A stretch of 64,000 nucleotides of DNA, taken from positions 62,001 through 126,000 of the forward strand of contig NZ_SMGI01000001.1 in assembly GCF_004346845.1 (NCBI RefSeq). The letters are read 5' to 3'. The stretch is from Winogradskyella wandonensis (lineage in GTDB: Bacteria; Bacteroidota; Bacteroidia; Flavobacteriales; Flavobacteriaceae). The position numbers and the translations under genes were made by a program. Position 1 is the stretch's first letter; every line of letters begins with the position of its first letter. Below are positions 2,238 to 63,127 of this stretch, piece after piece. The notes below the pieces were generated by a model. The model was given only the letters and a program-made list of their open reading frames with translations. It was not told the DNA's origin and did no database searches.

Positions 2238-2915
2238 ATGATGAAAAATTTACTTTCAAATATTAAGATTTCGGTACCAGAAAAAATTTTTCTGAAAGAT
2301 CCAGAATCTTCAGATTTAGGTAAGCGTATTATCGAGCACAGTATATTATTGATTGATGAAATAGGCTTTGATAATTTCACATTTAAAAAGTTGGGTGCAA
2401 AAATTGGCTCTAACGAGAGTTCTATTTATCGCTATTTCGAAAGTAAGCATAAGCTATTACTATATCTTACTTCATGGTACTGGGCTTGGATAGAATATCA
2501 GTTGGTTTTTTCTACATCTAATATTCCAAATCCAGAAAAACGACTTCTAAAAGCAATAGAAGTTGTAACGCAAACAATTAAGGAGGATTTTGATTTCTCT
2601 CACGTCAATGAAGTAAAGCTTAATCAAATTATCATTAATGAATACTCAAAATCCTATCTTACAAAAGAAGTGGATAGCGAAAATAAAGAAGGCTATTTTG
2701 TGGTGTATAAGCGTCTTATAGCTAGACTTAGAGATATGATTTTGAATGTTAATTCGGAGTATAAATATGCCTCTAGTATCTCTAGTACTATTGTCGAGGG
2801 AGCTTTACATCAACATTTTTTAAAAGATCATTTTAAATCTATAACAGATTGTAACGAGACAGTTACGCCAACACAATTCTTTCAAGAATTAACTATCAAC
2901 GCCATTAAATCCTAA
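2238..2915 (+). CDS. TetR/AcrR family transcriptional regulator
   Basis: The 225-residue protein has a TetR-type helix-turn-helix near residues 28-75: a first helix (GKRIIEHSILLIDEIGFDNF), then FTFKKLGAKIGSNESSIYRYF, which matches the usual recognition-helix pattern ending in YxYF. The C-terminal 150 residues are a helical ligand-binding and dimerisation region with no recognisable family, so the inducer is unknown. It is the first gene of a tight operon, with 7 nt to the ABC gene, and so probably controls the exporter that follows. A palindrome at 2202-2214 is a plausible operator. ATG 2238 is followed at once by a second Met; either could be used. Confidence 0.88.
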   Translation: MMKNLLSNIKISVPEKIFLKDPESSDLGKRIIEHSILLIDEIGFDNFTFKKLGAKIGSNESSIYRYFESKHKLLLYLTSWYWAWIEYQLVFSTSNIPNPEKRLLKAIEVVTQTIKEDFDFSHVNEVKLNQIIINEYSKSYLTKEVDSENKEGYFVVYKRLIARLRDMILNVNSEYKYASSISSTIVEGALHQHFLKDHFKSITDCNETVTPTQFFQELTINAIKS

Positions 2916-2922
2916 TTAATCG

Positions 2923-4584
2923 ATGAATACAGAAAAACCAATGTTAACGCCGTGGCAGCGTTTTGTAGGCTTATTAAAATTAGAGAAAAGGGATTTAACG
3001 CAGGTTATCTACTATGCTGTTTTTTCGGGTATAATAAGTCTAACGCTTCCTTTGGGAATCCAGGCGATAATAAATTTAATTCAAGGTGCACAAGTTAGTA
3101 CATCGTGGATAGTATTAGTAAGTTTAGTTACAATAGGCGTTGCATTTGTAGGCGTATTACAGTTGATGCAAATGCGTATAATTGAGACGATTCAGCAACG
3201 TCTTTTCATGCGAGCGTCTTTTGAGTTTACGTATCGCTTTCCAAAAATTAGGATGGACGAATTACACAATTATTATCCGCCAGAGTTGGCTAACCGATTT
3301 TTCGATGTTCTTACCGTCCAAAAAGGACTGGCAAAGCTATTGATAGATGTGCCAACAGCTGTGCTACAGATAATTTTTGCACTAGTTTTATTATCATTTT
3401 ATCATCCATTTTTTATAGCTTTTGGTGTATTGCTTATAGCATTGATATATATCGTTTTTAAATACACAATTCAAAGAGGAATGGAAACCAGTCTTAAAGA
3501 GTCTAAGAAAAAATATATAGTTGCACATTGGATTCAAGAAGTTGCTCGCGCTATTATGAGCTTTAAGATTTCAGGAAAAACCTCTTTAGCCATCGATAAA
3601 AATGATAAGCTTGTCGAGAACTATTTAATTGCTCGCGAAAGCCACTTTAAGATTTTAATCATCCAATTCATTCAAATGATTGGATTTAAGGTTTTAGTAA
3701 CCGCAGGTTTACTAATTATTGGTGGTTTACTCGTTCTTAGTCAAGAAATGAACATAGGGCAATTTGTTGCGGCAGAAATTATTATTCTTCTGGTCATTGG
3801 TTCTGTAGAAAAACTCATCTTAGGCCTAGAATCTTTCTATGATGTATTAACGTCGCTGGAAAAAATGGGACAGGTTGTAGATAAGAAAATAGAGTCGCAA
3901 GAAGGCGAAGAGGTTGTTGTAGACAAAGATTTTGATATCGAATTAGATAAAGTGTCATACGTTGTGCCGGATAGAAGTTTGCCTATCCTTAATAACGTGT
4001 CATTGAAAATTAATTCTAAAAGTAGAATTTTGGTCACAGGAGAGAGTGGCTCTGGAAAATCAACGTTAATTCGAATATTATCAGGCATATTCAGACCTAC
4101 TACGGGCCGTATTTTCTTAAATGATACAGCTGTAAATAACTTAAAGTTAAATAGCTATAGAGCACATTTAGGATTGGTTTTAAGTGATGAAACACCGTTC
4201 GAGGGAACAATAAGAGAAAACCTTACACTTGGCGATACATCAATAACCCAGCAAAAAATAGAGGAAATATTATCTGTTGTTGGTTTAATCGAATTTCTAA
4301 AAGAAACAGAGTTTGGTCTAAATACGGTTATTTATCCGGAAGGACGACAAATTCCGTTTACGGTTACCAAAAAAATAATGTTAGCAAGAGCAATTCTAAA
4401 ACGACCAAATATGATGATTTTAGAAGAGCCTCTAGAACATTTTGAAGCCGAAGAAACAAAGCGAATTATTAAATACCTGACCGATGAAAGTCATCCTTGG
4501 TCTTTAGTTGTAGTTAGTTTTAATTCAGAGTGGTCAAATGGCTGTTCTCAAATAATTAACCTTAGCAAAGGTCAAATCGTTTAA
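2923..4584 (+). CDS. ABC half-transporter (permease plus ATPase) of a type I-like export system, with eroded ATPase motifs
   Basis: The 553-residue protein joins an N-terminal six-helix ABC exporter membrane domain (about residues 25-310) to a nucleotide-binding domain (about 335-553). There is no C39 peptidase domain. Walker A is intact (GESGSGKST, 373-381). Other ATPase motifs are abnormal. The Q-loop position reads LVLSDE instead of VLQ. The LSGGQ signature is replaced by QIPFTV near 476-481. Walker B reads MMILEEPLE, with Glu in place of the usual Asp. The expected switch His is absent (VVVSFNSEW). The protein may bind ATP without normal hydrolysis, or belong to a divergent but working family. 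It sits between tetR (7 nt) and the HlyD-type adaptor (11 nt), so it should energise or gate export through that adaptor and the TolC-type channel. The cargo is unknown. Confidence 0.85.
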   Translation: MNTEKPMLTPWQRFVGLLKLEKRDLTQVIYYAVFSGIISLTLPLGIQAIINLIQGAQVSTSWIVLVSLVTIGVAFVGVLQLMQMRIIETIQQRLFMRASFEFTYRFPKIRMDELHNYYPPELANRFFDVLTVQKGLAKLLIDVPTAVLQIIFALVLLSFYHPFFIAFGVLLIALIYIVFKYTIQRGMETSLKESKKKYIVAHWIQEVARAIMSFKISGKTSLAIDKNDKLVENYLIARESHFKILIIQFIQMIGFKVLVTAGLLIIGGLLVLSQEMNIGQFVAAEIIILLVIGSVEKLILGLESFYDVLTSLEKMGQVVDKKIESQEGEEVVVDKDFDIELDKVSYVVPDRSLPILNNVSLKINSKSRILVTGESGSGKSTLIRILSGIFRPTTGRIFLNDTAVNNLKLNSYRAHLGLVLSDETPFEGTIRENLTLGDTSITQQKIEEILSVVGLIEFLKETEFGLNTVIYPEGRQIPFTVTKKIMLARAILKRPNMMILEEPLEHFEAEETKRIIKYLTDESHPWSLVVVSFNSEWSNGCSQIINLSKGQIV

Positions 4585-4595
4585 ACTAAAGTATT

Positions 4596-5948
4596 ATGTT
4601 AAATATATCTCGTAACCCATTAAATAAGAATGTCGACCTTAGTCACTTTAGGTCTGCAAGTCATGTATTTAATAAAGATTATTACAAATACTGGAGGCGT
4701 TTTCTCGGTGGGTTTGCAATAGTCTGTTTTATAATACTGTTTCTGCCATGGACACAGAACATTTCTGGCAGAGGTGAAGTAACAACCTTAACACCTGGAC
4801 AGCGACCACAGACCGTGCAATCCCCAATTCCGGGTAGTATACAAGAATGGTATGTAAGAGAAGGAGATTATGTAAGTAAGGGCGATACCATCATGAAAAT
4901 TGCCGAAATTAAAAGTGAATACTTTGACCCCAATCTTGTAGAGCGCACACAAAAGCAAAAGTTAGCTAAAGAATTCTCGGTAGAATCTTATCAAGGAAAG
5001 GTAAAGGCACAAGATGTTAGAATTTCTGCATTAATAAGGGAAAGAAGGTTAAATTTAGAAATGGCTGAGAATAAAATCTTACAAGCGCTTCAAAAAGTAA
5101 AAGCAGATAGCATAGATTTAGTGGCTGCAAGAACCAACTTAAGTATTGCACAAACAAAATATAACCGAGCAGATTCTTTATACAAAGATGGATTTACGGC
5201 ATTAAAACGTGTAGAAGATGCTAGAGTAAAGTTACAAGAAACTCAGGCCAAAGAGACATCGCAAGAGGCTAAACTTTTAGTTAGTAAAAACGAAGTCATT
5301 AATGCCAAGTTAGATATTGCTCGTATTCAAGCAGAATATGCAGATAAGATATCTAAAGCAGAGAGCGAAAAATTTTCGGCACTATCTAGTCAAGCAAGCT
5401 CGGAAGCCGATGTGCAGAAATTAGAAAACGAAGTAACAAATTACACCATAAGAAATGGACTTATGTATGTAACAGCACCATATAATGGGTACATACAGAC
5501 AGCGCTACGCGGTGGTATTGGGCAAACTTTTAAAGAAGGCGAGGAATTGGTTGGTATTATCCCTGCTGAGGTCGATTTGGCGGTAGAAACATTTGTAGAA
5601 CCAATTGATTTACCATTAATCCATGTGGGCGAAAAAGTAAGAGTAGAATTCGATGGATGGCCTGCTATAGTTTTCAGTGGGTGGCCAAATGTATCTTACG
5701 GAACTTACGGTGCAGAAGTAGTGGCAGTAGAACGCTTTATTACCAAAAAGAATGGAAAGTTTAGAATTTTACTAAAACCTGATACAGATGATAATCCATG
5801 GCCAAAAGAAATTAGACCTGGGTCTGGGGCTAGAACTATAGCACTTCTAGAAGATGTACCTATTTGGTTCGAGCTATGGAGACAACTTAATGGTTTCCCG
5901 CCAAATTATTATCAGCCGATTGAGGCATCAAATACCAAAAAGAAATAA
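4596..5948 (+). CDS. HlyD-family periplasmic adaptor (membrane fusion protein)
   Basis: The 450-residue protein has a single membrane segment near residues 36-52 (GGFAIVCFIILFLPW). A lipoyl-like half-motif follows (QSPIPGSIQEWYVREGDYV, about 75-93), then a long alpha-helical hairpin rich in Lys, Glu and Ala (about 115-285). The second lipoyl half and beta-barrel follow (VTAPYNGYIQTALRGGIGQ and onward). This is the HlyD layout: it links an inner membrane ABC transporter to an outer membrane TolC channel. It lies 11 nt after the ABC gene and 3 nt before the TolC-like gene, so the three are surely cotranscribed. The C-terminal part (WFELWRQLNGFPPNYYQPI) is typical of flavobacterial members. Confidence 0.9.
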   Translation: MLNISRNPLNKNVDLSHFRSASHVFNKDYYKYWRRFLGGFAIVCFIILFLPWTQNISGRGEVTTLTPGQRPQTVQSPIPGSIQEWYVREGDYVSKGDTIMKIAEIKSEYFDPNLVERTQKQKLAKEFSVESYQGKVKAQDVRISALIRERRLNLEMAENKILQALQKVKADSIDLVAARTNLSIAQTKYNRADSLYKDGFTALKRVEDARVKLQETQAKETSQEAKLLVSKNEVINAKLDIARIQAEYADKISKAESEKFSALSSQASSEADVQKLENEVTNYTIRNGLMYVTAPYNGYIQTALRGGIGQTFKEGEELVGIIPAEVDLAVETFVEPIDLPLIHVGEKVRVEFDGWPAIVFSGWPNVSYGTYGAEVVAVERFITKKNGKFRILLKPDTDDNPWPKEIRPGSGARTIALLEDVPIWFELWRQLNGFPPNYYQPIEASNTKKK

Positions 5949-5951
5949 CGC

Positions 5952-7355
5952 ATGAGATTTCTAAAAGTTGTTGTTTTTTCAATCTTAGGTTTTGTAGGTT
6001 TTTCACAGGAAGAGGAATTGCCTAACGTGCTTAGGTTCGATGAATATTTGGGGTATGTCAAGAAATTTCATCCTATTGTTAAGCAAGCCGAATTAGTTAT
6101 AGACGAGAGTCAAGCAAAACTTATGAAGTCCCGAGGCGCTTTCGATCCTAAAATTGATATTGATTACGACCGAAAAAAGTTAAAAGGCACAGAGTATTTC
6201 GATAAGCTTAATGGCACATTTAAAATTCCGACATGGTTTGGTGTAGAATTAAAAGCCAATTTCGAAGAAAATACGGGCGATTTTTTAAATCCAGAAAACT
6301 TTATTAGTGACGGAGGCTTATATTCTGCGGGAGTTTCAGTTCCAGTGGCGAGAGGACTTTTCATTAATGACAGGATGGCCTCATTAAAACAAGCACGTTT
6401 ATTTAGAGAGCAGGCTAAGGCAGATAGAGATATTTTTGTAAACAACATTTTGTTCGAAGCCTCTAAAGTCTATTTTAAATGGCTAAGAGCTTATAACGAG
6501 CTGAAGCTTTTCGAAAACTTTTTAACCAACGCCGAGTTGCGTTATCGAGGTATTCTAAGAGGTGTAGAACTGGGCGAAAATGCGCAAATAGATGCGACAG
6601 AAGCGAGAATTGCGTTGAATAATAGAAAGCTGAGTTTGGAGCAGTCTCGTGTAAAAATGATAAAGGCAACTTTAGAATTATCGACGTTTTTATGGCTAGA
6701 AAATAATATACCAGTAGAACTGCAACCAAATGTCATTCCAGATGTAGATACAGAGCCTATTGTAGATGCTACTTTTGATATTAGTCAGCTACGTAGTGAA
6801 GAATTCATCATAGATGCGCATCCAAAGATGAGGTCTTTAGATTTTAAACGTCAAAGTCTTGATGTAGAGCGACGCCTCAAAGCAAATATGTTATTACCTC
6901 GAGTAGATGTAGAATATAATTTCTTAACAGATACACCAGATATCGCGAGGTCTTTTAATACGGCAGATTACAAAGGCGGTTTAAATATAAGTATGCCTTT
7001 ATTTCTTAGGAAAGAAAGAGGAGATTTAAAGTTAGCCAAGATTAAACTTAATGATACTGAATTCGAAATTAACGCCACACGTGTTAATCTGCAGAATAAG
7101 ATTAATGGCTTAAAACAAGAGTTAGATTCTTACGTGACTCAAAATGCAATTACGCTTCAGATGATAGAGGATTATCAGCAAATGCTTAGAGCCGAAGAAC
7201 GCAAATTTCAATTAGGTGAAAGTTCTCTATTCTTGGTAAATTCTCGTGAATCCAAACTCATCGAAGGGCAATTAAAGGCTATCGAAATTCAGAATAAATT
7301 CTTCGATACAAAAGCGAAACTCTTTAATAGCTTAGCTATTAATCCGGAGTTTTAG
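5952..7355 (+). CDS. TolC-family outer membrane efflux or secretion channel
   Basis: The 467-residue protein has a signal peptide (MRFLKVVVFSILGFVGFSQ) and two similar halves of long helices with intervening strands, as in TolC-type outer membrane factors. In each half a conserved region precedes the long coiled coil (EYLGYVKKFHPIVKQAE in the first, FIIDAHPKMRSLDFKRQSL in the second). It would form the outer membrane exit duct for the ABC-HlyD pair immediately upstream, with only 3 nt between the genes. It ends the operon; no strong terminator hairpin follows, and the next 98 nt carry a short repeat and the mpl promoter. The substrate cannot be inferred. Confidence 0.88.
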   Translation: MRFLKVVVFSILGFVGFSQEEELPNVLRFDEYLGYVKKFHPIVKQAELVIDESQAKLMKSRGAFDPKIDIDYDRKKLKGTEYFDKLNGTFKIPTWFGVELKANFEENTGDFLNPENFISDGGLYSAGVSVPVARGLFINDRMASLKQARLFREQAKADRDIFVNNILFEASKVYFKWLRAYNELKLFENFLTNAELRYRGILRGVELGENAQIDATEARIALNNRKLSLEQSRVKMIKATLELSTFLWLENNIPVELQPNVIPDVDTEPIVDATFDISQLRSEEFIIDAHPKMRSLDFKRQSLDVERRLKANMLLPRVDVEYNFLTDTPDIARSFNTADYKGGLNISMPLFLRKERGDLKLAKIKLNDTEFEINATRVNLQNKINGLKQELDSYVTQNAITLQMIEDYQQMLRAEERKFQLGESSLFLVNSRESKLIEGQLKAIEIQNKFFDTKAKLFNSLAINPEF

Positions 7356-61081: not shown

Positions 61082-63127
61082 TTATTCCGAAAGCGGTGCT
61101 TTAGGTAATTCTATAAAGAACTTACTACCAATGTTTGGTGTACTCTCCACCCAAATACGGCCATTATTAAGTTCTACTAAGTCTTTACAAATCGTTAATC
61201 CAAGTCCGGTACCTTTTTCGTTTTCTGTACCGATTGTAGTAAAGTTCTTTTTTGCATTAAAGAGTTTTTTCTGGTTTTCTTCAGAAATACCAATACCAGT
61301 ATCTTCAACGCAGATTAATACTTTTCCGTTGTAATCTTGGTTAGAAACAGTTATAACATCACCCTTTCCGGTAAATTTTACAGCATTTGTAATTAAATTC
61401 TGGATGACAATTTCTAGCATACTTCGGTCTGCATAAACAAACTCTCTTCTGGATTCGTCAATAAGAATAATGCCCTTATCGTTTACCTTTTTCTCTATTA
61501 AAGAGATTTTAATTTGAAAGATTTCTTGAATATTAAATAACTCTGGCTTAGGCTGAAGGTTTTGCATTTGCGACTTTGACCAATTCAATAAATTAAATAG
61601 CAAAGACGAAGCGTTGTTAGCATTTTCACTAAGTTCAGGAATTAGCTCATTAAACTCTTCTTTACTAATTCCGCCATCTTTCAGTAAATCCAAAAAGGCT
61701 TTTATTGACGAAATAGAATCTTTTAAATCATGCGATACAATAGAAAATAGTTTGTCTTTAACTTGGTTTACCTCTTCTAATTGCGCATTTTTTAGAGCAA
61801 GTTTTTTATTCTCTTTGGCAAACGCTTTATTGCTTTTTGCCTCCTTAGAACTTTTTAAATAACTGAATATGAGTAGAGCGGTTACAAAAACTAAAGCAGC
61901 AATAAGTCCATACATTAAAAGCAAATCTTGTTTACTCTTTTCTGGCGAAGCCGTTAAAGTATCTTCTACTTTTTCTAGTTTTTGAGGAATTATAATTTCT
62001 GTAGGTGTCTCAGAAATTTCTTCAATAGTGCTTTCTGGGATTTTCGCAGAGGCTTCTTTTTCTTTGTCTAATTTTTCTTTTAAACTGTAATATTGATTTT
62101 GCCAATTAAAAGCGTCTTCGTAAAAACCACGAGTAGAATCTAAATCTCTATTCAGTTTTAAATTGTAAAGTAATTCTTCCTCATTATCTAGTTTTCGGGC
62201 TAGTTTCAAAGCCTCAAGAAGTTGACCTTCTGCGAGTTTCAATCTTTTGTTTTTTATGCTCAGCTCACCAATTGCATTAAGAGATTTTAGAACGCCAAGC
62301 TCATCTTTCTGATTTCTACTATATTTAAGACCTTCTCTTAAATAGTCTGCAGCCTTGTCCAAATCTTCAATGGCCAAATAAGATTTTCCTAAACTTGGCA
62401 AAATTTCGCCTCGTATACTTTTGTCATCTTCTTTATCTAAAAGCATTAGCATACGTTCGTAACTATCGATTGACCGTCTATAATCATCTTTTTTTGCGTA
62501 CAGCTTACCCAAGTTTTTTAGTGAGTACATCATGCCTTCTAGGTCATCAAGTTCTTCCCTTACGCTTAAGGCCTTTTTATTGTACTGAAGTGCTTTATCT
62601 ACAAAGCCCGTATTGTAATAAGCGTCCGCTAAATTGTTATAAGCCTTACTTAGTTCGGATTTTAATCCTTTTTCTTCAAAAATTGAAATAGCAGAAAGCG
62701 AATTTTGTAACCCTTTTTTGTAGTTACCTCTTTGTATTTCTATTACACCAAGATTGTTATTCACTTTTGCAATACCTAGCGTGTCGCTAACAGAGGTGTA
62801 GTATGTTCTGGCAGTTTCAAAATTAGATACGGCTTCAACTTCGTTTTCTTGCTTGTTATTAATTAAAGCTTTAATAAATGTGGTTTCGGCAAGTCCTCTG
62901 TTATAATTTAAAGATTTTGATAATTCTGAGGTCTGGGCAATAAATAATAAGACTTTATTATAATCCTCTATTTTGTAAAGTTCGTTTATAAGCAACAGAG
63001 ATGTCTCTACTTTCGTCGAGTCTTGGTTCTGATAGGCCAAACGCACAGTAAGGCTATCTATCTTTGCATTTTGTGCAAAGCTTATCGCAGCAGACAGGCA
63101 GATGGCATAAAGTATAAGTTGCTTCAT
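61082..63127 (-). CDS. Orphan sensor histidine kinase with periplasmic TPR domain
   Basis: I start at ATG 63127 (MKQLILYAICLSAAISFAQ, a signal peptide), giving 681 residues; 15 upstream codons in frame do not resemble a signal. The periplasmic part is about eight TPR repeats (for example ELSKAYNNLADAYYNTGFVD and ALQYNKKALSVREELDDLEG). One membrane helix (about 402-424) and a coiled coil follow. The kinase core has H-box FSIVSHDLKDS (His near residue 466), N-box IVQNLITNAVKF, G1 VEDTGIGISEEN and G2 EKGTGLGLTICKDLVELNNG. It should sense an envelope signal via the TPRs. No response regulator gene is nearby, so its partner is elsewhere. Confidence 0.9.
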   Translation of the reverse strand: MKQLILYAICLSAAISFAQNAKIDSLTVRLAYQNQDSTKVETSLLLINELYKIEDYNKVLLFIAQTSELSKSLNYNRGLAETTFIKALINNKQENEVEAVSNFETARTYYTSVSDTLGIAKVNNNLGVIEIQRGNYKKGLQNSLSAISIFEEKGLKSELSKAYNNLADAYYNTGFVDKALQYNKKALSVREELDDLEGMMYSLKNLGKLYAKKDDYRRSIDSYERMLMLLDKEDDKSIRGEILPSLGKSYLAIEDLDKAADYLREGLKYSRNQKDELGVLKSLNAIGELSIKNKRLKLAEGQLLEALKLARKLDNEEELLYNLKLNRDLDSTRGFYEDAFNWQNQYYSLKEKLDKEKEASAKIPESTIEEISETPTEIIIPQKLEKVEDTLTASPEKSKQDLLLMYGLIAALVFVTALLIFSYLKSSKEAKSNKAFAKENKKLALKNAQLEEVNQVKDKLFSIVSHDLKDSISSIKAFLDLLKDGGISKEEFNELIPELSENANNASSLLFNLLNWSKSQMQNLQPKPELFNIQEIFQIKISLIEKKVNDKGIILIDESRREFVYADRSMLEIVIQNLITNAVKFTGKGDVITVSNQDYNGKVLICVEDTGIGISEENQKKLFNAKKNFTTIGTENEKGTGLGLTICKDLVELNNGRIWVESTPNIGSKFFIELPKAPLSE

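Follow-up and report, generated by a model that had tools for sequence, protein, structure and literature searches.

What powers an ABC exporter subunit that has kept its Walker A motif while its other ATPase motifs are eroded, and is such a protein maintained or decaying? This question is raised by a gene of Winogradskyella wandonensis (assembly GCF_004346845.1), which lies on contig NZ_SMGI01000001.1 within positions 62,001 to 126,000 of the forward strand. This whole stretch of 64,000 nt is referred to as the window, and all coordinates of the gene and its neighbours are those of the window.

The operon and the ATPase motifs of its permease

The gene belongs to an operon of four genes (Table 1) separated by 7, 11 and 3 bp, and its frame holds no internal stop, in agreement with the sequence-only reading, which had described an undamaged frame in a tightly packed operon. 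The encoded permease comprises a membrane domain (TMD, approximately residues 1–320) followed by a degenerate nucleotide-binding domain (pseudo-NBD, approximately residues 337–553). Its AlphaFold model adopts the ABC exporter fold (pLDDT 78.0, pTM 0.58); the first match of this model in the PDB was TM287/288 (TMq 0.85), and the HlyB/D complex 8dck was also among the fold matches. The operon is nearly invariant. Among the family loci with sufficient flanking sequence, the permease gene is followed in the same orientation by HlyD in 152 of 154 cases and by TolC in 151 of 154, and it is preceded, again in the same orientation, by a similar TetR gene in 104 of 150. Both HlyD and TolC are missing at two loci (L208 and L209), and TolC is missing at L185.

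Motifs and helices are given their customary names here. The motif positions of the window protein were read from an alignment with three further full-length exporters encoded in the genome of origin (L002, L003 and L004), and the PDB matches listed for the protein align these positions likewise. On this basis, the perfect Walker A motif, the replacement of the LSGGQ signature by QIPFTV, the Asp-to-Glu exchange in Walker B and the absence of both the Q-loop Gln and the switch His, all proposed from the sequence alone, were borne out (Table 1). The emphasis has to be shifted for Walker B, as the exchange concerns the Asp position (Glu501, 4423–4425), while the catalytic Glu itself (Glu502) is kept. 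The D-loop Asp position is occupied by Glu. With the Walker A motif kept and the signature and switch His gone, it is plausible that the window protein binds ATP but hardly hydrolyses it.

Table 1. Features of the locus in window coordinates. Fractions refer to the 213 family members with a nucleotide-binding domain.
Feature	Position	Strand	Description
tetR	2238..2915	+	TetR-family regulator, 225 aa, operon gene 1; Pfam TetR_N 4.3e-8
ABC-exporter-derived permease	2923..4584	+	553 aa; Pfam ABC_membrane 6.7e-8, ABC_tran 5.6e-22
ELANRFFDVLTVQKGLAKLL	3283..3342	+	residues 121–140; presumed coupling-helix-1 region; best conserved 20 residues in TMD-only relatives
Last predicted membrane helix with acidic Glu285 and Glu296, and Lys297	3775..3813	+	Glu285 nearly invariant in the family
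Walker A GESGSGKST, intact	4039..4065	+	residues 373–381; kept in 199/213
Q-loop Gln position, Ser421	4183..4185	+	from the L002/L003/L004 alignment; Gln in 8/213
Signature position, QIPFTV for xLSGGQ	4348..4365	+	residues 476–481; LSxG[QE] in 4/213
Walker B end, Glu501-Glu502 for Asp-Glu	4423..4428	+	first-position Asp in 23/213, DE in 17/213
Switch (H-loop) His position, Phe533	4519..4521	+	His in 13/213
hlyD	4596..5948	+	HlyD-type periplasmic adaptor, 450 aa; Pfam HlyD_3 2.8e-13
tolC	5952..7355	+	TolC-type outer-membrane factor, 467 aa; Pfam OEP 2.6e-37

Erosion of the nucleotide-binding domain across the family

Orthologues, one per genome, were found in 118 of 199 genomes of the same taxonomic family including the genome of origin (E ≤ 1e-60), with identities of 44–78% to the window protein, its own copy aside. 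Family members were present in 76 of 296 genomes of a phylum sample and in 197 of 395 genomes of a class sample. The proteins compared were drawn non-randomly from these sources: the closest 80 of 580 confirmed stretches from named genomes (including Winogradskyella, Polaribacter, Tenacibaculum, Maribacter and Aquimarina), the best 30 loci and 20 of the more divergent ones from the taxonomic family, the best 30 loci and 40 stretches from 39 of the 76 genomes of the phylum sample, and the best 30 loci together with 20 of the 197 genomes of the class sample. After removal of L306, of identical proteins and of members scoring below 200 bits with the TMD profile, 222 non-redundant members including the window protein were used for motif counts, 213 with and 9 without an NBD; L104, whose stretch holds a stop, was left out of one alignment. 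Sequence comparison thereby shows a family of ABC-exporter-like permeases encoded together with HlyD and TolC in Bacteroidota and, more distantly, in Sphingomonadales.

The motif losses are common to 50 aligned proteins of the taxonomic family. An alignment of orthologues had been suggested as a check of the sequence-only reading, and it revealed the same substitutions throughout; a lineage-specific lesion or a sequencing error is ruled out by this family-wide sharing of the losses. None of the aligned orthologues of the taxonomic family carries a near-canonical motif set. Walker A, the DE pair and the switch His occur together in just 11 members, all of which belong to one distant, near-canonical clade of 15, and the same clade holds all four members with an LSxG[QE] signature. 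Outside it, DE was read in L137, L315 and L317 and a His at the switch position in L032 and L058. The pair reads ED in most relatives, with Glu first in 144 and Asp second in 148 of the 213 members with an NBD. Walker A is unrecognisable in L045, L046, L048, L191 and L324, and with 60 rows of the TMD tree scored for the P-loop Lys, parsimony requires at least five changes of this residue.

At least nine members (L175–L178, L305 and L307–L310; 332–339 aa) consist of the TMD only; L306 would be the tenth, but its frame runs into a contig end and it was therefore not counted. Each of the nine genes is followed, in the same orientation, by HlyD and then TolC. In a tree of the membrane domain with 77 rows, they group as a single clade (SH-aLRT 99) that adjoins L204, itself a member with a degenerate NBD; this tree comes from a quick search and its root rests on very distant outgroups. 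A single change accounts for the loss of the NBD by parsimony over 74 rows. Judged from these alignments and trees, the NBD of the family was eroded repeatedly and, in one clade, disappeared, and we infer that the signature was lost early and Walker A and the whole domain last. The sequence-only reading was thus correct about the motif losses and missed the wider pattern of repeated erosion and loss of the domain.

Conservation is inverted compared to canonical exporters, as the TMD is conserved above the NBD. In the set of 50 proteins, the TMD averages a pairwise identity of 0.702 and the NBD one of 0.467, with the higher value for the TMD in 1225 of 1225 pairs, whereas two sets of canonical exporters from the same genome set (31 each) gave TMD/NBD values of 0.680/0.800 and 0.636/0.764, the TMD being the better conserved domain in just 26 and 25 of 465 pairs. 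The membrane domain is strongly conserved, and the NBD is largely freed from catalytic constraint. It does not drift freely, as purifying selection persists: dN/dS values of the NBD range from 0.028 to 0.189 in the six of nine close pairs with computable dS, and these values are rough, with dS at 1.4–2.5. In the remaining three NBD pairs and in eight of nine TMD pairs, dS was saturated and hence undefined. The loss of motifs goes beyond chance because the same positions are lost family-wide while the frame stays under purifying selection. Together, the shared losses and the dN/dS values, rough as they are, support the earlier claim that the protein is maintained rather than decaying.

Across 20 loci, mean identity decreases from the TMD (0.601) over HlyD (0.562) and TolC (0.409) to the NBD (0.351). 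By these sequence measures, the targets of selection are shown to be the membrane domain and the HlyD-TolC partners.

Plasmid records extend the family to Persicobacter, Aureibacter and Riemerella and to Sphingomonadales homologues with 25–28% identity. The Aureibacter protein has no recognisable Walker A and no ABC_tran match. All five Sphingomonadales homologues that were read lack Walker A as well as the acids of Walker B and the His of the switch, none of the four scanned gave an ABC_tran match, and one of the homologues, L337, reads LSVGE at the signature position; their TMD is conserved above the NBD in 10 of 10 pairs. The annotation of the 15 plasmid matches listed includes seven proteins named ABC transporter ATP-binding protein and three named transmembrane domain-containing protein. 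Annotation as an ATP-binding protein hides the decay of the NBD.

Some further features of individual relatives were observed. The NBD of Sphingomonadales homologues L337 and L341–L344, which Pfam did not recognise in the four scanned, still aligns across all five and has conserved stretches of its own, namely VIVLDRP-like and LSxLxDMxP-like segments. A degenerate-NBD member on a plasmid of the poultry pathogen Riemerella anatipestifer (L340, 3953–5605) lies in ABC-HlyD-TolC order and is annotated as an ATP-binding protein. On a Sphingopyxis plasmid, a homologous stretch (L345, 3501–4484) has no listed gene in an incomplete gene table and lies close to an IS3 transposase; this copy may be interrupted. 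Distant relatives (L181–L189, L193, L204–L206, L210, L213 and L313–L318) carry an additional N-terminal region of approximately 75–255 aa before the membrane domain, for which no Pfam match was found in the four scanned (L184, L187, L193 and L205). Genome G245 of the class sample holds two ABC copies, L205 and L206, each N-terminally extended and with a degenerate NBD.

Proposed mechanism and likeness to known transporters

We propose that the window protein is an ATPase-dead, ABC-derived permease that feeds HlyD and TolC and is probably driven by an ion-motive force in the manner of SbmA or of MsbA without its NBD, a proposal to which we assign about even chances of being correct. The permease would dimerise and would be incapable of canonical ATP hydrolysis; its ABC membrane domain would alternate access and hand the substrate to HlyD and then to TolC, with the energy coming from a proton- or ion-motive force or from the gradient of the substrate itself. 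In the window protein, the pseudo-NBD would act as a scaffold and perhaps still bind nucleotide. The neighbouring TetR gene suggests that the substrate is a small toxic or lipophilic compound.

By analogy, the energy source of the pump is probably an ion-motive force, which we regard as the likeliest driver because the membrane domain of MsbA (MsbA-MD) carries out ΔpH-dependent ethidium efflux in the absence of an NBD (available excerpt of PMC4979069) and because SbmA, for which an origin from a full ABC protein by removal of its NBD was proposed, is driven by protons (available excerpt of PMC13316013). Three acidic residues, Glu88, Glu285 and Glu296, are nearly invariant and are located in long helices predicted for the membrane domain. 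Glu285 is present in 99% of the 198 degenerate, 100% of the nine TMD-only and 93% of the 15 near-canonical members and is absent from the three other exporters of the same genome; the position of Glu88 is an Asp in most members of the near-canonical clade. Membrane acids gained together with the loss of the NBD, as a sign of proton coupling, were looked for and not found, since these acids already occur in the near-canonical clade. The acidic residues predate the loss of the NBD and therefore permit proton coupling without proving it.

Type I secretion exporters (HlyB-HlyD-TolC, LssB and PrtD) share with the family the ABC-HlyD-TolC order and the exporter fold. They differ from the family studied here, which has lost the ATPase motifs, sometimes lacks the NBD and often has a TetR gene in the operon. 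The best NCBIfam score of the window protein was obtained with TIGR03375 (type_I_sec_LssB), and its scores for LssB, HlyB and PrtD were 192, 145 and 132 bits, all below the respective cutoffs of 693, 726 and 510 bits; it fell below the curated cutoff of every one of the 25 models listed out of 168. The window protein thus shows the HlyD/TolC context and the exporter fold with TMD followed by NBD of type I secretion systems, the latter being absent from the nine TMD-only relatives, and it lacks the complete set of ATPase motifs. Its sequence suggests that the permease arose close to the ABC exporters of type I secretion, whose defining ATPase motifs it has nevertheless lost.

A hallmark of the SLiPTs, SbmA and BacA, is proton-driven transport through a glutamate ladder. 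As in the family described here, an ABC-type membrane domain is involved; that of the SLiPTs is proposed to have been stripped of its NBD and to use the proton gradient (excerpt of PMC13316013). SLiPTs import peptides and have no coupling helices, whereas the present family keeps coupling helix 1, is encoded with HlyD and TolC, and includes surviving intermediates with a decaying NBD. An NBD-free TMD is found in the nine short relatives but not in the window protein with its pseudo-NBD, and the coupling-helix-1 region is conserved. The window protein resembles SbmA in principle and is not a SLiPT member.

To our knowledge, pumping by the membrane domain of an ABC exporter without its ATPase is known mainly from truncations of MsbA and LmrA and from the importer SbmA. 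LmrA-MD is reportedly an exporter membrane domain from which the NBD was removed in the laboratory. MsbA-MD, too, is the membrane domain of an ABC exporter and functions on ΔpH with no NBD (PMC4979069, as excerpted), but it is an engineered truncation with no periplasmic adaptor, whereas the family described here consists of natural genes that lie alongside those for HlyD and TolC. Exporters with a single degenerate site, such as TM287/288, TmrAB, ABCC1 and CFTR/ABCC7, also have altered catalytic residues and retain the NBD (PMC7756269, as excerpted); they keep one catalytic site per dimer, whereas a homodimer of the window protein would have none. No paper describing this ABC-HlyD-TolC family was found in the open-licence PMC literature.

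Taken further, the family could represent a class of tripartite exporters in which the inner-membrane ABC pump was switched from ATP to an ion-motive force, passing from near-canonical members over a pseudo-NBD to NBD-free members, independently of SbmA and with transport directed outward via HlyD and TolC; we put forward this wider interpretation tentatively, with somewhat less than even confidence. Exporters of this kind, carried by many genomes, have in effect put pumping without the ATPase to the test, with the intermediates preserved. If the members do transport, they would show that a primary pump can turn into a secondary or passive exporter in nature, and they would provide a graded set of proteins for finding the residues that couple ion and substrate.

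Alternative explanations

Instead of being driven by an ion-motive force, the permease could be a gated conduit resembling CFTR or SUR, in which a pseudo-NBD dimer binds ATP without hydrolysing it and its occupancy gates a passive channel or one that follows the substrate gradient. The Walker A motif retained in most members (Table 1) and the common acidic Walker B pair suggest that most of them still benefit from binding nucleotide, which counts against the preferred reading. The NBD is also under purifying selection, and in ABCC1 and ABCC7 ATP stays bound at the degenerate sites for minutes with no turnover (PMC7756269, in the excerpt available). Several lineages with the same operon, however, have lost Walker A or the whole NBD, and ATP gating is therefore ruled out as the core function of the family; we consider this explanation unlikely for the window protein.

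Conservation of the TMD above HlyD or TolC and the near invariance of the operon would also be expected of an obligate partner, namely an inner-membrane anchor or assembly regulator for HlyD and TolC to which another inner-membrane pump supplies the substrate. The conserved polar residues in the predicted helices together with the predicted exporter fold nevertheless suggest a translocation path, which renders such a role improbable.

The preferred ion-motive-force-driven permease also has to be weighed against a separate ATPase that would dock at the conserved coupling-helix-1 region to energise the membrane domain. Residues 121–140, which we take to be this region from homology to exporters, show mean column conservation of 0.92 and 0.94 in the nine TMD-only members and of 0.91 and 0.80 in the 198 others, where they are surpassed by residues 41–50 and 281–290 (0.93 each). 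Their retention in TMD-only members, unlike in SbmA, which according to the excerpt of PMC13316013 is without coupling helices, would suit a cytoplasmic partner. The region may be in contact with the pseudo-NBD, keep the dimer together or have some other binding partner; the first of these roles is excluded in TMD-only members because their NBD is gone. The TMD and HlyD frames overlap in seven of the nine TMD-only operons (HlyD counted from its first start codon) and are separated by less than 80 bp in the other two, hence an NBD gene between them is impossible. A search of the nine genomes with a profile of the relatives' NBDs did not reveal a family-like, split-off NBD among the matches listed: the best matches were generic (2e-46 to 5e-43, frames of 583–636 aa) and the best free-standing ATPase frames listed reached approximately 1e-25, compared to 7e-58 for a fused NBD in an independent control genome (G745) and to 7e-108 and 1e-100 for those of G379 and G304, which are rows of the profile. 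Relocation of the NBD to a separate gene was not seen at this sensitivity, at which a strongly eroded free NBD could escape. Moreover, the fused pseudo-NBD of most members would presumably fill the docking site, and powering by a separate ATPase is accordingly judged decidedly improbable.

The sequence-only reading had suggested that the degenerate subunit might pair with an unlinked, catalytically active half-transporter, to be recognised as a canonical ABC gene that co-occurs with the operon. A single degenerate site is a common feature among ABC exporters (PMC7756269, excerpt), and the genome of W. wandonensis contains three other full-length exporters, of which L002 and L004 carry all the motifs and L003 all but the catalytic Glu, its position being taken by an Asp; four further frames of 563–644 aa match over the NBD only. 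No gene for a partner half-transporter lies between the genes of the operon. Among the operon-bearing genomes checked, L002 was present in 44 of 44, L003 in 20 of 20 and L004 in 44 of 44, but each of them also occurs in 16 of 16 genomes with no match to the operon. They look like housekeeping genes rather than partners that track the operon, and a dedicated canonical partner is rejected among these three. Nine relatives, moreover, are left without any NBD to pair. The suggestion found no support and is very unlikely to be correct. At Walker B, L003 (733–2484) reads Asp-Asp for Asp-Glu; its signature is unaltered, as is its switch His.

That an ordinary ABC exporter has become a pseudogene or suffered a lineage-specific lesion can practically be dismissed: the NBD does evolve faster than the TMD and 2 of the 118 orthologue matches (G122 and G180) contain one internal stop, but the same losses recur family-wide, NBD dN/dS is 0.03–0.19 where computable, and the remaining matches, which span 117 genera, have open frames, a few of them reaching contig ends.
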